Shown piece after piece: positions 2,464 to 63,327 of a stretch of 64,000 bases of DNA (positions within the stretch are counted from its first letter, which is position 1; every line of letters starts with the position of its first letter). A program made the position numbers and the translations under genes. The notes beneath the pieces were generated by a model. The model did no database searches and was not told the origin of the DNA. It saw nothing but the letters and a program-made list of their open reading frames with translations. Source of the DNA: Rhyacophila brunnea (Eukaryota; Arthropoda; Insecta; Trichoptera; Rhyacophilidae); assembly GCA_022495005.1 (NCBI GenBank), contig JAGYXB010001012.1, positions 62,001-126,000 of the forward strand. The letters are read 5' to 3'.

Positions 2464-2510
2464 ATTAGGTTGAAATAGGTTAGATTAGGTTAGGTTAGGT
2501 TTGGTTTGGT
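2464..2510 (+). repeat. Short TTAGG-like array inside a TIR element
   Basis: Imperfect GGTTA and TTAGG units fill this stretch. TTAGG is the canonical insect telomere unit. Here it sits inside a transposable element, so it is an interstitial array and not a chromosome end. Confidence 0.8.
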
Positions 2511-3014
2511 CTAAAAAGAAAGTTGTAAAATCTCACGTCTACCTCTGCGGCACATTTACCACCAATTCTCTCAAAATCCTCAGGCGGAGATGTAGCAAGG
2601 TGTTTTAGCAGCCAAGGCAGTAAACAAAGCTTGTACATCTGCACATTTGTACTTGTACTACTTATATTATGCTCATATGTGTTCGTGTATCATTAAATAA
2701 TACGAATTAAATAATTATCAGTAAGTAATAGATAATCTAGTAAGTGTTTTGAAAATGTACTGTCGCCTAAAACTGAACAAAAACTTTAAGTTTACTCTGT
2801 GTTAGTTTACCTAACCTAACCTTACAAAGGTGATAAAATTAAAATATAAACAATAATCGAAAAGTCTTTTTATATCAAATAAAAAGTGAGGAAATTTGCA
2901 CCTCAGGCGATTTAAAAAAATGATAAAATATTATTTTTTATCGTAATCATTAGAAGAATATTTTTTCCTTTAATTTGGTCGATTCGGGATGAAATTTCCC
3001 TTTCTTTAATGGTC

Positions 3015-3043
3015 GGTGCTCCCAGTTTGAGAAGCAGTGGCCT
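3015..3043. mobile_element. Solitary hAT-like terminus
   Basis: Read on the minus strand the sequence is CACTGCTTCTCAAACTGGGA, which resembles the ends of Charlie-type hAT elements. No matching opposite end was found, so this is a one-sided fragment at best. Confidence 0.35.
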
Positions 3044-3049
3044 ATTGCT

Positions 3050-3700
3050 TGTAACGACACTTTTGATATCTTTTTCAAATGTGGACAGAATTATTTACTA
3101 ATAGTCAGGAGCAATTCGCTCAGCACACTGAGTATTTGCTCTTGATTAAATACGCTTTGGAATATATTTTTTATTATTAGACGCGCGATTTGAACCGGCA
3201 TTCACGGCTTTAGAGACCATCACAATTATTTTTCCACAGTGGGCCTTAAGTAGTACCCACTTGTTACATGTATTTACAGTTTTGACATTTGAATTAAGTA
3301 AGTAGTCGATTATTCGGTTATTCATAACGTCGAGTAATATAACATGCCTATCTTTTCTGACTGTCATTATTTGATAACAAACGTATTTAAATAAATATTT
3401 AGATCTCTGGATAATAATATTATAATATACATAATCAACATTTATACGCAGAAATTCCATGTTATTCATACTTGATGAATAATATTTTTCTTATCAGAAG
3501 GTCTATCAAAGTACGCCGTATATTTTAATACGTTAAAATTTGTAATAATTTAAATTAAAATAACTGGCCATGGTGATTTTTTTGGAATTCATTGGTTTTA
3601 ACCTTTTTCCAGGAATTTATTTGTAATTGCCTTTCTGGTAATTGTAAAATATATAATATTTTACTACGCAATATCACTCGTCGTTATTATCAATTGATTT
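3050..3700. other. No gene recognised
   Basis: The stretch is AT-rich. A 107-codon frame on the minus strand at 3146-3469 has AT-driven composition and no recognisable domain, and was not called. Confidence 0.4.
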
Positions 3701-8987: not shown

Positions 8988-9040
8988 TAATAAACTATTT
9001 TTTTATTCAACGAATAATTCACAAGATTTAAGAATTAGTT
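8988..9040 (-). repeat. SINE 3' tail fragment (family C, minus)
   Basis: The sequence TTTATTCAACGAATAATTCA followed by CAAGATTTAAGAAT is the 3' end shared by the family-C SINEs. Nothing of the tRNA head is present. Confidence 0.6.
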
Positions 9041-9354
9041 AACTCCATTAATTAATTTTCTTAGAATTGACGATTTACACCTCTTGAGTGTAGTATTTTT
9101 ATTGTTTATAAAGAATAATGATCTATTATTACGTTTGACGATTTATTATATTAATATGCTATCGAGTGTATTGTTATTAATAAGATAGGGTTTTAACTAA
9201 TTGGGTTTTTACTGACACTTCAACTATTCATAATTTGTTTATTGTATTTTTTGTGACCTCTGGCTAGATAGGTAGGTAATGGTATTTTTACCTACTTTAT
9301 TGTATTGATTTACTATATAAGGTAGAGTGTTCGTTGTCAGTGTGTGTTTGCCTT

Positions 9355-9420
9355 TGGTGAGTGTACACGAAGCCTGAAGATGCCGAAAGGCGAAACCCGG
9401 GTCGCAAAAAACGACTTAAA
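9355..9420 (+). ncRNA. Hammerhead-ribozyme-like motif (type I layout)
   Basis: The core CTGAAGA (9374-9380) matches the conserved CUGANGA box. A short stem GCC-GAAA-GGC follows (9382-9391), then GAAA (9392-9395) and a minimal self-complementary stem ACCC/GGGT ending in the cleavage triplet GTC (9401-9403). A predicted stem I pairs GC before the core with GC after it (9404-9405), with a CG/CG pair beyond an internal loop. Hammerheads with a very short stem III are known from Penelope-like retroelements. One oddity is an unpaired T (9381) between the core and stem II, which could reduce or abolish activity. No retroelement protein was recognised next to it. Confidence 0.5.
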
Positions 9421-9444
9421 TGAAGTAGTACAGAGCTTGAATCC

Positions 9445-9595
9445 ATTAGAATTTAATATTCTAAGTATTGAACATACATAATTTTGAAAACACTTCTGAA
9501 AAAATGTATTATAACCAATAGAAGAAATCTTTTTGAAAAAAATAAGACAACCCGCAGGAATCGAACCTGCATCTCTCCAGGTATTGCGCCCATGA
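9445..9595 (-). repeat. tRNA-derived SINE, family C (minus)
   Basis: On the minus strand the box-B-like GCAGGTTCGATTCC (around 9555-9570) lies in a tRNA-like head. The body reads AAAAGATTTCTTCTATTGGT, then the shared tail with GTATGTTCAATAC. The 5' part of the head merges into the outer end of the inverted repeat FB that begins near 9590. Confidence 0.75.
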
Positions 9596-13901: not shown

Positions 13902-14436
13902 TTGAAGTTATACTTCATTTGGCGCGTCTGGGAAATTAGATCAGAGTGTATTTTTGGCGTGTGACATGTAACACATAATTTATTTTTTCATACGAAAAAA
14001 AACCGCACTCGATTGGATTCGAACCATCGATTGTTCGGTTATCAGCCGAACGCACTACCTTTACGCCACAGTATGATACTGCAATCGTGACGATTATACA
14101 GTATAATATTATGGTTTAGAATTGTTCCGTTGCCTAGGCAGCGAATTTATTATTGTCGGCCATTTGCAATTCCTTACGTAAACAACCGATTAAACGTCAG
14201 AGTGACAGTTGGTACTTTAAAAATAAAAACAATGAGAAACTATCATATAATTTAGTAATATAAGTTAATGTGTATAGAAATAAACCAACGGCGTTCCAAT
14301 AAGCGTTCCTTTTTCTGTAGTGTGTAATTTGACAAGATAATTAAGAGCTAGTCAAAGAAATTAGTTTATCACAAGTTCTGTTACGCCAAAGAAGTATAAC
14401 TTCTAATGCGCGTACACAAGTACACACACCGACTTT
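13902..14436 (-). mobile_element. TIR element E carrying a tRNA-Ile-like module (minus)
   Basis: The left end TTGAAGTTATACTTCATTTG and the right end, reverse-complemented TTAGAAGTTATACTTCTTTG, are inverted repeats with GCG just inside. A conserved outer extension, CGCGTACACAAGTACACACA, lies beyond the right end. A tRNA-like module sits inside at about 13999-14080. Other copies are 46445-47305 (with the tRNA module) and 22318-22800 (without it). No protein-coding frame is present. Confidence 0.65.
13999..14080 (-). other. tRNA-Ile(GAT)-like module inside element E
   Basis: On the minus strand it contains an A-box-like TGGCGTAAAGGTAGTGCG, an anticodon arm with loop CTGATAA (anticodon GAT, Ile) closed by a TTCGG stem, and the B box GGTTCGAATCC. 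The 5' acceptor strand does not pair properly with the 3' strand GAGTGCGG, so a functional tRNA is unlikely. It is probably an internal Pol III promoter. Confidence 0.65.
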
Positions 14437-30339: not shown

Positions 30340-30737
30340 CAGTGTTGCCAACCGTGTGTTGAAAATCGTACTATAATTTTATATAAAAGTACTATAATTC
30401 TGCATTTGCCATTTCGCAATCGAGTGGTCTTCGAAAATTTGGAAATCTGCGGCCCGCGGCGAAATATTTTTCCCAAAAAAAACAAGCCGACCACGAAAAA
30501 TCGGGAACCTGCGGCCCGCGACGAAATATTTTTCCTAAAAAAAACGAGCCGACCGTGAAAATTTGGGAACCTGCGGCCCGCGGCGAAATATTTTTCCTAA
30601 TAAAAACGAGCTGACTATGAAAAATTGGGAAAATTTTCATTTTCAACAGATGACAACGCGTACTATATTTTATCTCCAAATACTATAATTTTGGAGGCTC
30701 TGTACTATAATTCCACTTTTAAAATATGGCAACACTG
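30340..30737. mobile_element. 398-bp hAT-like element with internal minisatellite, perfect TSD
   Basis: The ends are CAGTGTTGCCAACCGTG and, reverse-complemented, CAGTGTTGCCATATTTT. ACATTCTG is duplicated exactly (30332-30339 and 30738-30745). Subterminal GTACTATAATT words repeat near both ends. The centre is a 62-bp tandem repeat. Two overlapping minus-strand frames (30273-30679) translate the tandem repeat and are not genes. Confidence 0.92.
30437..30635. repeat. 62-bp minisatellite, about 3.2 units
   Basis: CTGCGGCCCGCG begins at 30447, 30509 and 30571, exactly 62 bases apart, each followed by ACGAAATATTTTTCC or GCGAAATATTTTTCC. The fourth unit is incomplete. It is strongly GC-richer than its surroundings and contained within the hAT element. 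Confidence 0.92.
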
Positions 30738-34904: not shown

Positions 34905-35092
34905 TCCACACTGGCAACAATGTGCGTGGGCGCGATACCCGAGAGATGCAGGTTCGATTCTGCGGGGATACTTTTTTCAAAAAGATTTTTTCTATTGGTT
35001 ATAATATATTTTGTGTATTTTCAAAATTATGTGTGTTCAATAATTAGAATGTTACATTCGTAAATCTTGTGAATTATTCTTTGAATAAAAAA
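34905..35092 (+). repeat. tRNA-derived SINE, family C (plus)
   Basis: The tRNA-like part contains GCAGGTTCGATTCTG. The body AAAAAGATTTTTTCTATTGG and tail TTAGAATGTTACATTCGTAA follow, ending in an A-rich run. The 5' half of the head (TGCGTGGGCGCGATACCC) is partly decayed. Confidence 0.85.
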
Positions 35093-35340
35093 AAATCTCA
35101 AAACCTGTGTTTGAAAAATTTAGCAAACCGCTATTTCGACCATCTTTGCTTAAACAGATGACTGTACAACTATTTTCGTTAACAATTATAATTTATTACA
35201 AATCAAAAGTAAAACATAGTCTATGCCCTATTTAATGGTTTAACTCAGTGCTCCGCAACCGGTGTGCCGCGAGACAATGCTAGGTGTGCCGCGGAGCATT
35301 GCTTAAAAAACACAAATGATTTTGTATATTATACAATAAT

Positions 35341-44205: not shown

Positions 44206-44690
44206 ACTATTTATTTTATTCAACGAATAATTCACAAGATTTAAGAATGTACCATTCTAATTATTGAACGTACATAATTTTGAAAAACACTTTCTGAGAA
44301 AATATATTATAACCAATAGAAAAAATCTTTTTGACAAAAAGTAAGCCACCCTGGCAGGGAATTGAACCCTGCATATCCTGGGTTTACGCCCCGTCCGTGC
44401 ATTACCTCTATGCTATAAAGTGACGTACTAATTGGGACAAACTTTAACCATTGGCCTTTTTAATACCCACTCATCAGCGTTCTTCCAAATCGAGCTACTT
44501 TGTAGCTACTTTTGTCGCAATTAGTACGTCACCTTGTTGCATAGAGGTATTGCACGGACGGGGCGTAAACCCAGGAGATGCAGGGTTTGATGCCCTGCCA
44601 GGGTGGCTTACTTTTTTCAAAAAGATTTTTTCTATTGGTAATAATATATTTTCTCAGAAAGTGTTTTTCAAAATTATGTATGTTCAATTC
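44206..44690. repeat. Head-to-head pair of family-C SINEs forming a long palindrome
   Basis: A minus copy (44206-44432) and a plus copy (about 44520-44690) face each other. The arms match very closely, including CACCCTGGCAGGG, GGTTTACGCCCCGTCCGTGC and AGTGACGTACTAATTG. The spacer of about 85 bp includes GCTACTTTGTAGC. Both B boxes are altered (GGTTTGATGCCC on the plus arm). High arm similarity suggests a recent origin or gene conversion. The frame 44451-44696 is an artefact. Confidence 0.88.
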
Positions 44691-46444: not shown

Positions 46445-47305
46445 AAAAAATCGGTGTGTGTAAGTACACACATAAGGATGTACGCGCGTTAGAAGTTATA
46501 CTATTTGGCGTAACAAAATAAAATAATCGCACACCGCGTTAGTCAAAATTCACATCAACCAAAAATATTCAAACAGTTAGAAAATAGTTTTCACATCAAA
46601 TTTCAAACTAAATATCTAATACCAAACAAAAGTAACGTACCTATCACACTTAAAAATATTAAGCTTAGTTTTGACAGCTAATCACATATAAAAAGGAGTA
46701 GGTACAATTCACAACGCAATATAATATTTTTCACCAAGCAAAATAATCCATACTCCTTATTATATGGTCACTATGGTCGGCTATGATCACATCATTGCGC
46801 GAGACGTCATGTTTCAGATCTGTCAAATAATAAAGTAGGATATAAGATAGAATTGACGTTTTAATAGCCCCATATCAATAAAAACTAGAATAAAGGAGGG
46901 CCGCTTATTGGAGTGCCGCTGGTTTATTTCTAGACACTTTAACTTATATCACTAAATAAACTATTTAATTATTTCTCGTTGTTTTCATTTTATTTTGGCC
47001 AACAATAATAAATTCGTTTCCTAGGCAACGAAACAATTCTTCGTACATGTAATAATAAATTCGCTGCCTAGGTAACGGAACAATTCTAAACTATAATATT
47101 ATACTGTATAATCGTCATGATTGCATTATCGCGTAAAGGCAGTGCGTTCGGCTGATAATCGAACAATCGTGGTTCGAATCCAATCGAGTGCGATTTTTTT
47201 CGTGTGAAAAAATAAATTATGTGTTACATGTCACACGCCAAAAATACACTCTGATCTGATTTTCCAAATGCGCCTAAATAAGTATAACTTCAAAAAAGTA
47301 TTTTT
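46445..47305 (+). mobile_element. Element E with tRNA-Ile-like module (plus), expanded copy
   Basis: It runs from the outer GTGTGTGTAAGTACACACAT and GCGCGTTAGAAGTTATACTA to GCGCCTAAATAAGTATAACT. Extra sequence (about 46520-46850) interrupts the family pattern. A CCTAGGCAACG/CCTAGGTAACG segment is duplicated (about 47020 and 47068). The tRNA-like module is at about 47120-47200, with anticodon loop CTGATAA and B box GGTTCGAATCC. Confidence 0.7.
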
Positions 47306-49286: not shown

Positions 49287-49545
49287 GTGACTATTTCTTT
49301 TATTCAACGAATAATTCTCAAGATTTAAGAATGTACCATTCTAATTATTAAACATACATAATTCTGAAAACACTCATGATATAATATAGCCAATAAAAAA
49401 AAGTAAGACACCCGGCTGGAATCGAACCTGCGTCTCTTGGATATCGCGCCCTGTGCATTACCACTATGCTACGACTGCCATGCTTAATTGCGACAAATTT
49501 TAACTATAAACCTTTTTAATACCTGCTCATAAGCGCTCTAGGTAG
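49287..49545 (-). repeat. tRNA-derived SINE, family C (minus), near full-length
   Basis: On the minus strand it has a leader, then a tRNA-like head with TAGCATAGTGGTAATGCACA (A box) and GCAGGTTCGATTCC (B box), then GGGTGTCTTAC, and a shortened body and tail ending near 49300. This is the best template for family C in the window. Confidence 0.88.
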
Positions 49546-62433: not shown

Positions 62434-63327
62434 CATGGTTTCCCAAACTATGGGCAGCGACCCACAAGCGAATATTGAGTGGGCCCTCGCCATTGTATAC
62501 ATGAATTAAAAAAATAAGTAGTGATAAATTTGATATTTCATTTAGCTATTTATAATTCCTACAAATTGAAATAAACTTAAGGTTACGGAAAATATTGTGA
62601 TAAAATAATAATAATTTGAATTGCCAATGCACTATACACTGCACGGGGAAGAGATGAAAAAGTTTGATTCGTTGCGTTGGATTTGTAACCTATTTCAAGA
62701 CGACTTACCAACTAGTATGTCAACAAAAGCAAGTGAAGAACTCATTGATTTATCAGAAGATACGTCACTGAAAAAAAGTTTCAATCGTAAACAGTTAACG
62801 AAATTCTGGCTCTCAGTTGCTGATAATTATCCTTGCCTGTTCGATGAAGCTATGAAAATCTTCCTCCTCTTTACTACCTCATATCTATGTGAGATCGAAT
62901 TTTCGGCTATGGTTAACATTAAAACTAAATACCGAAATAAATTGGATATATCAAACTCACTGCGATTAAAAGTAACTAAAGTTGAAGTTGATGCTAAAAC
63001 TGTAATGAAGAAAAATAAGAAACAAATACATCCTTCCCATTGAAATAGCTTTGTAAAAAAATCTTGCTTAAGTAATAATTTTTTTTATTTAAGTTGTTTC
63101 TTATTTCAACAGTCTTTCATTCATATTGGTAACACTTATAAAAAATATTTTTTTTATTTCAATTAGAACAAATAAGACAGCATTAAGTAGTTCCACGACT
63201 CGCCACTGGGGAATTTGAGCATTACCAATATTTATGCCCCTTTTCTCTAAGACAGCTAAGAGATGGGTCCCAAGATTGGAAATTTTTGTTAGATGGGTCG
63301 GAGCCCAGTCAACTTTGGGAACCACTG
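62434..63327 (+). mobile_element. 894-bp hAT element, perfect TSD, with an open transposase end
   Basis: The ends are CATGGTTTCCCAAACTATGG and, reverse-complemented, CAGTGGTTCCCAAAGTTGAC. ATCTAAGG is duplicated exactly (62426-62433 and 63328-63335). GACCCA words are found near both ends. It contains the 140-codon frame at 62621-63043. It is a deletion derivative lacking the N-terminal and catalytic Asp parts. Confidence 0.93.
62621..63043 (+). CDS. hAT transposase C-terminal part, frame open (ZBED5/SCAND3-like)
   Basis: These 140 uninterrupted codons match the C-terminal third of Charlie-type hAT transposases. Residues 28-50 contain LPTSMSTKASEELIDLSED. Residues about 64-80 hold FWLSVADNYPCLFDEA. 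Residues about 83-117 hold LLFTTSYLCEIEFSAMVNIK, then YRNKLDISNSLRLKVT, the dimerisation region with the catalytic Glu motif (YLCE). The end, HPSH, fits the usual C-terminus of this family. The BED zinc finger and the two catalytic Asp motifs are missing, so it cannot transpose on its own. Whether it is expressed is unknown. The start codon is simply the first ATG in frame. Confidence 0.75.
   Translation: MPMHYTLHGEEMKKFDSLRWICNLFQDDLPTSMSTKASEELIDLSEDTSLKKSFNRKQLTKFWLSVADNYPCLFDEAMKIFLLFTTSYLCEIEFSAMVNIKTKYRNKLDISNSLRLKVTKVEVDAKTVMKKNKKQIHPSH

Follow-up and report, generated by a model that had tools for sequence, protein, structure and literature searches.

The window, a stretch of 64,000 nucleotides from a contig of the trichopteran Rhyacophila brunnea, holds between positions 9372 and 9405 of its forward strand the letters of a hammerhead core, arranged around a much reduced stem III and broken by one extra T. 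The locus raises the questions of whether these letters belong to a mobile element, whether the extra T is a sign of decay, and what part a ribozyme might play in the propagation of such an element. Hammerhead-type motifs are already known from Penelope-type elements, and minimal type I hammerheads of Penelope-like elements (PLEs) are said to have been treated by Cervera and de la Pena in 2014 and by Lunse et al. in 2017. We conclude that the locus very probably carries a hammerhead-type motif at the presumed ORF start of a PLE, within a 5'-truncated copy. A guess made from raw letters has thereby become a placed feature, a PLE hammerhead-type motif with an apparent defect that is best read as a start codon.

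Layout of the motif and its strength as a sequence match

Read directly, the core boxes are as the earlier note described them, all lying within 9374-9403 (30 bases), and G-C pairs do begin stem I on both sides (C9373-G9404 and G9372-C9405). Beside the core, stem I consists of these two pairs only, followed by A/A mismatches. The hammerhead core defined in PMC3088659 (C3 U4 G5 A6 N7 G8 A9, G12 A13 A14 A15, U16 and H17) is complete, with its letters at 9374-9380, 9392-9395 and 9402-9403 (Table 1). The first A of stem III (9395) doubles as the last A of the GAAA box. The state of pair 10.1-11.1 depends on U9381: if this base is taken as an insertion, G9382 pairs with C9391, and if it is taken as 10.1, the position is mispaired. 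The letters of A15.1 and U16.1 in stem III are pairable, and ACCCGGGU leaves the monomer without a loop; since stem III is a loop-less palindrome, full pairing is possible only between two RNA molecules.

Table 1. Features of the locus, in window coordinates.
Feature	Position	Strand	Basis
Host repeat, left half	8994..9033	-	self-BLAST
5'-truncated Penelope-like insertion, ~420 bp, with "short" 3' end	9034..9454 (about)	+	genome copies, empty sites
Stem I, 5' strand adjoining core, 2 bp with 9404-9405	9372..9373	+	sequence
Hammerhead box CUGAAGA (C3 to A9)	9374..9380	+	sequence
Presumed start of PLE ORF (MPKGETRVAKNDLNEVVQSLNPLEF), ended by the edge of the insertion	9380..9454	+	open frame
Extra U between A9 and stem II, read as U of AUG 9380-9382	9381	+	sequence
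Stem II GCC/GGC with GAAA loop	9382..9391	+	sequence
Hammerhead box GAAA (G12 to A15.1)	9392..9395	+	sequence
Stem III ACCC/GGGT, ACCCGGGU, loop-less palindrome	9395..9402	+	sequence, fold energies
GUC cleavage triplet; predicted cut between 9403 and 9404	9401..9403	+	sequence
Stem I, 3' strand adjoining core	9404..9405	+	sequence
Host repeat, right half; B-box-like GGTTCGATTCC on minus strand, by eye	9455..9591	-	self-BLAST

As a sequence match alone, the motif is weak. The pattern CTGANGA..GAAAC..GTC occurs once in the window and at least once in four of 100 shuffles, and a looser descriptor requiring stems I-III, which likewise gives one match in the window, also matches 71 of 300 Markov-1 simulated windows. 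Folding of the single strand stays within the ordinary range (z = -0.43 for 9355-9420 and -1.77 for 9369-9412). The Rfam hammerhead models, to which the earlier note had looked for confirmation, gave no match in the window or the locus, including a 76-base search at E ≤ 10. At gathering thresholds, Rfam also reported no hammerhead in 12 phage loci (71 fetched) with CTGANGATGCC..GGCGAAAC motifs, in some of which (e.g. L036) complete stems I-III can be traced by eye together with the same inserted T. Because motifs with full stems go unreported in these phage loci, the Rfam test may be insensitive to this layout. Five matches of 22-23 bases to phage records were taken as chance.

As a separate observation, four hammerhead-like motifs on phage contig L034 (1469-4404, 799-874) and one on phage contig L033 (3954-3987, 1279-1355) lie in the same stretch as Rfam Pistol ribozymes; these motifs carry the extra T, and Rfam at gathering is silent on them.

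The motif recurs in a family of Penelope-like elements

A search of the genome (1.09 Gb) gave 4363 candidates, and the scoring of 40 of them yielded 42 matches, namely the window itself, 40 strong matches and one weak match (E = 0.19, 74%). Over 9034-9464 the other copies match at about 90-94%, and their 5' starts are scattered. It is this recurrence across a dispersed retroelement family in the genome that raises the motif above chance.

The link to Penelope suggested earlier from the letters was borne out by two of the longest fetched copies, L102 and L103, which extend on their upstream side into an ORF where matches to reverse transcriptase (RT) and GIY-YIG share one frame. In L103, which ends with the motif, RVT_1 (E = 6.5e-6) and GIY-YIG (E = 2.1e-4) share a frame; where both domains occur, the Pfam scores are slightly below the curated cut-offs (26.4 vs 29.6 and 21.9 vs 22.6), and L107, with GIY-YIG alone, scores just above (22.7). 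The RT/GIY-YIG ORF of L102 ends about 0.65 kb before the predicted cut. The encoded protein has 317 relatives, the best of which shares 49% identity with the query across 94% of its length; among the best 120 of these 317, the entries that name an organism are from insects (e.g. Phthorimaea and Bicyclus). The YVDD and GIY-YIG residues (GxY/YxG/R) are invariant in a 20-row alignment. The combination that characterizes PLEs, an RT with a C-terminal GIY-YIG endonuclease, is present in the upstream ORFs of L102 and L103, and the window copy is too short to contain it. Of the pLTR-ORF-pLTR organization, the fetched copies show an ORF end, a pLTR-like stretch and a presumed ORF start. An optional "tail", inverted head-to-head copies and target-site duplications, all of them published hallmarks of PLEs (PMC3846280, PMC11167929), are also found in the family, which is a PLE.

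Among five viral and 28 prokaryote-genome loci, the only long PLE-like match, L122, has no match to the hammerhead descriptor. This locus (2464-3476 of JAGLBD010000131.1, a contig binned as Pseudogulbenkiania) holds a PLE-like RT (E = 2e-31) and is possibly eukaryotic contamination.

The insertion and the repeat that it interrupts

When the window is compared with itself, 8994-9035 and 9448-9591 align to neighbouring portions of a single dispersed repeat, which marks about 9034-9454 as inserted. The host repeat has paralogous empty sites at 44206-44377, 34927-35094 and 49290-49451. The ends of the insertion are uncertain by a few bases, given the microhomology of AT on the left and GAAT on the right. 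The inserted sequence comprises a pseudo-LTR-like stretch and about the first 25 codons of the presumed ORF, with the motif near its 3' end. It had been described earlier as a decayed copy; the description holds for its 5' truncation but not for its age, since the copy is young, with 11 substitutions over 421 positions relative to the majority of 30 copies. In the alignment of these copies, the window copy is without eight majority columns.

A further copy of this PLE, L080 (1463-2021), apparently interrupts a member of that host repeat family too, at a point slightly removed from that of the window copy.

The extra T and the presumed start codon

T9381 is present in all 30 aligned copies, the window included. 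The earlier view of it as a departure that might matter was right in so far as it differs from the strict consensus, but a base shared by every copy is not damage. It creates an ATG at 9380-9382, which opens MPKGETRVAKND..., and this frame runs uninterrupted over 40 codons in 16 of the 18 long-ended copies, the exceptions being L098 (frameshift) and L099 (stop); the short-ended L100, having no exact core, was left out of this parse. By analogy with the Poseidon PLE of Anolis carolinensis (PAc), the extra T most plausibly supplies the U of an AUG. We infer that this AUG, embedded in the motif as A9-U-G, starts the PLE ORF, as it does in PAc, and that the frame continues into the RT domain. Counted from the first base of this AUG, the predicted cut comes at 24 nt, after codon 8. 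An MPKGET start was not found in the N-termini of 12 of the 317 relatives, which are predicted proteins with uncertain starts.

Conservation

The core boxes are kept elsewhere in the genome, as anticipated in the earlier note: all core letters are present in 28 of the 30 aligned copies, the window included (exceptions, L083 and L100). The sequence ACCCGGGT is exact in 26 of the 30, and so is the stem III palindrome; the CTGAAGA box shows a single difference in 210 cells, in L100. Over 9372-9405 there are eight differences in 1020 cells (0.78%), which ties this segment for the least variable of 281 windows of 34 nt (median 2.35%). Immediately downstream, the segment 9414-9447 comes close to this (1.27%). 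The low variation of 9372-9405 suggests constraint, which is confounded with coding and with the nearby start of reverse transcription, in copies chosen for their similarity to the window.

Folding and predicted cleavage

In energy predictions made without tertiary contacts, the minimum for the monomer is -12.3, as against -2.6 for stems I plus II, and the dimer in the hammerhead fold (-24.9) does no better than a pair of misfolded monomers (-24.6). The most favourable co-folds take other shapes, at -35.6 through the upstream palindrome GUGUACAC and at -31.3 without GUGUACAC; the latter pairs ACCCGGGU between molecules, with the core misfolded. As stem III is palindromic, two transcripts can pair, and any self-cleavage would be by a dimer. 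Such cleavage would fall after codon 8, parting the start codon from the remainder of the ORF.

Were ribozyme-cut RNA commonly used as template, insertions would be expected to start at G9404. There was no excess of insertion starts at the predicted cut, with five at 9404, four at 9403 and five at 9405. All five places at 9404 are true truncations, as are four of five at 9403 (L154 is an internal duplication) and five of 12 at 9405. The other seven places at 9405 keep motif-like sequence upstream and are mutated copies, two belonging to one inverted pair and two being apparently duplicates. A cleavage footprint at 9404, where true truncations account for every place, was considered and dropped, the neighbours 9403 and 9405 giving similar numbers. 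Since no excess of starts falls at the cut, the insertion templates were not visibly ribozyme-processed, which argues that ribozyme-processed RNA is not a favoured template in vivo.

3' ends and head-to-head insertions

The 3' ends of the 30 aligned copies are bimodal: 11, including that of the window copy, lie at +48 to +60 after the cut, 18 lie at +94 to +96, and none falls between these two classes (L096, unparsed in this count, is elsewhere placed as short, at +54/55). The two classes are about 43 nt apart, as the optional tail (30-40 bp) of PLEs would give. Counted from the presumed ORF start, they fall at about 72-84 and 118-120 nt, near the start of reverse transcription reported for PAc (111-118 bp; PMC11167929).

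An abutting inverted partner is present in 16 of the 30 copies and absent from the window copy. From 62 fetched family loci (L073-L165), which partly overlap and in which each pair was counted once, 32 distinct head-to-head insertions were obtained, which are inverted copies as expected of a PLE. Thirty of these pair a short with a long end, one is long/long (L097), and one joins a short end to an unclassified one (L074, at +69). The 30 short/long cases among 31 classified pairs have a probability of 1.5e-8 against equal odds, in loci that are not a random sample and were picked by two selections, neither of which used end pairing. The best matches to the window contributed 18 pairs, 16 of them short/long, and the loci picked by truncation point contributed 14, all short/long. 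The outer flanks, much like target duplications, share at least 7 bp in 27 of the 32 pairs and 9-17 bp in 24; in 200 reshuffled control sets, the number of pairs sharing at least 7 bp averaged 5.2 and never exceeded 11, the comparison including up to six element letters per side. The two cDNAs of one insertion seem to start at different sites, and the pairing speaks for reverse transcription starts that are coupled and exclude each other.

Comparison with known systems

The closest parallel is PAc, which likewise encodes an RT plus GIY-YIG protein (PMC11167929). According to that paper, reverse transcription of PAc is initiated within the opening ~118 bp of the ORF, at reported sites of 111-118 bp, two adjacent start sites explain the optional tail, and both target strands are extended; the hammerhead motif cleaves in vitro, and ribozyme mutants are without effect on insertion in vitro. 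As in PAc, the hammerhead letters of the family are placed where pLTR and ORF meet, and C3 and G8 precede the presumed start codon (PMC11167929). The family differs in the placing of its short and long ends, at about 72-84 and 118-120 nt from the presumed ORF start as against start sites of 111-118 bp in PAc, and in the behaviour of its pairs, which almost always combine a short and a long end, whereas for PAc in vitro the two strands are reported not to differ in start site (PMC11167929). Cleavage is demonstrated for PAc (PMC11167929), whereas the cut in this family is predicted from the letters.

The tail, inverted copies and duplications of the family are hallmarks published for the Penelope elements of Adineta vaga and, as cited in the same paper, Drosophila virilis (PMC3846280). 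That paper favours an origin of the inverted copies by self-priming, with an antisense RNA or DNA strand as template (PMC3846280); the paired short and long ends would fit two separate initiations better than self-priming. In the parts of the literature searched that were accessible, we found neither a count of short/long pairing nor an inference of mutual exclusion.

The motif itself is like the minimal type I hammerheads described for PLEs in its type I core, its reduced stem III and its pseudo-LTR setting, and such hammerheads are expected to act as dimers (PMC6155905, PMC7761336). It is also like the putative dimeric hammerhead of Aedes aegypti, in which a palindromic stem III gives full pairing in the dimer, although that stem has 10 bp in A. 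aegypti (PMC3088659) and would have 8 bp here.

Alternative explanations

One alternative is compatible with a PLE origin and competes on activity alone: the motif may be a hammerhead fossil, inherited and then kept by coding (MPKGETRVA) and by the translation start, with ribozyme activity gone. We regard this as possible, on the doubtful side. In keeping with it, insertion starts bear no cleavage footprint, the predicted fold is unfavourable, Rfam gives no score, the segment downstream of the motif is nearly as conserved as the motif, and the PAc mutants left insertion in vitro unaffected (PMC11167929). The core letters ahead of the AUG, which would be non-coding, are nevertheless kept too (CTGAAGA, above), the palindrome is exact in all but four copies, and the PAc motif has proved active in vitro (PMC11167929).

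The motif could instead belong to a non-LTR retrozyme, a small ribozyme-bearing non-autonomous retroelement, rather than to a fragment of an autonomous PLE. Short copies that are non-coding except at the ORF start are common among those fetched, and type I hammerheads are found in metazoan retrozymes (PMC7761336), but the long copies hold RT and GIY-YIG in the same unit as the motif, the scattered 5' starts of the short copies match truncation, and unsystematic inspection showed no tandem ribozyme units of 150-300 bp. This reading is very unlikely. Finally, a chance resemblance in ordinary DNA, for which the frequent random matches of loose descriptors and the lack of an Rfam match might speak, is contradicted by a copy family that keeps the motif together with an RT/GIY-YIG ORF, and by the position of the motif where a published PLE, PAc, carries its hammerhead (PMC11167929), and we give it almost no credence.

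A model for the insertion

With the motif read as part of a PLE, the history of the window copy would be as follows, judging from the family and from PMC11167929. The protein of the element would have nicked AT-rich DNA inside another repeat; reverse transcription of an uncleaved RNA would then have begun at a point about 50-60 nt past the predicted cut, and would have stopped before the whole element was copied, leaving a 5' truncation.

The family is large enough for its integration mechanism to be read from genomic scars. We tentatively propose, as a model slightly less likely than not, that PLE integration may be a coupled two-site reaction with distinct, forced starts of reverse transcription, in which the upstream hammerhead may serve as a switch of RNA pairing and RNA fate. 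Both nicked target strands would be extended, and the reverse transcripts, one on each strand, would be forced to start at different sites about 43 nt apart on the template, perhaps because a protein dimer brings both of its polymerases onto a single RNA. Just upstream, a hammerhead that includes the start codon and a palindromic stem III could leave the RNA to be translated, to pair as a template or to be cut, the last option detaching the start codon and the reverse transcription start sites. The pairing of short with long ends is a sharp, testable constraint on how Penelope reverse transcription starts, and this paired-end rule is the part most worth following.

Other features of the window

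Matches to tRNA-like sequence, by ARAGORN and/or Rfam, occur at 14002-14076, 47122-47193 and 49407-49478; all three are also dispersed repeats and are possibly tRNA-derived SINEs. The last of them sits in the host repeat interrupted by the PLE copy. A 142-aa ORF at 62615-63040 has a hAT dimerisation domain (PF05699, E = 8.9e-6), and a tandem repeat of 62 bp, in 3.2 copies, occupies 30432-30631.
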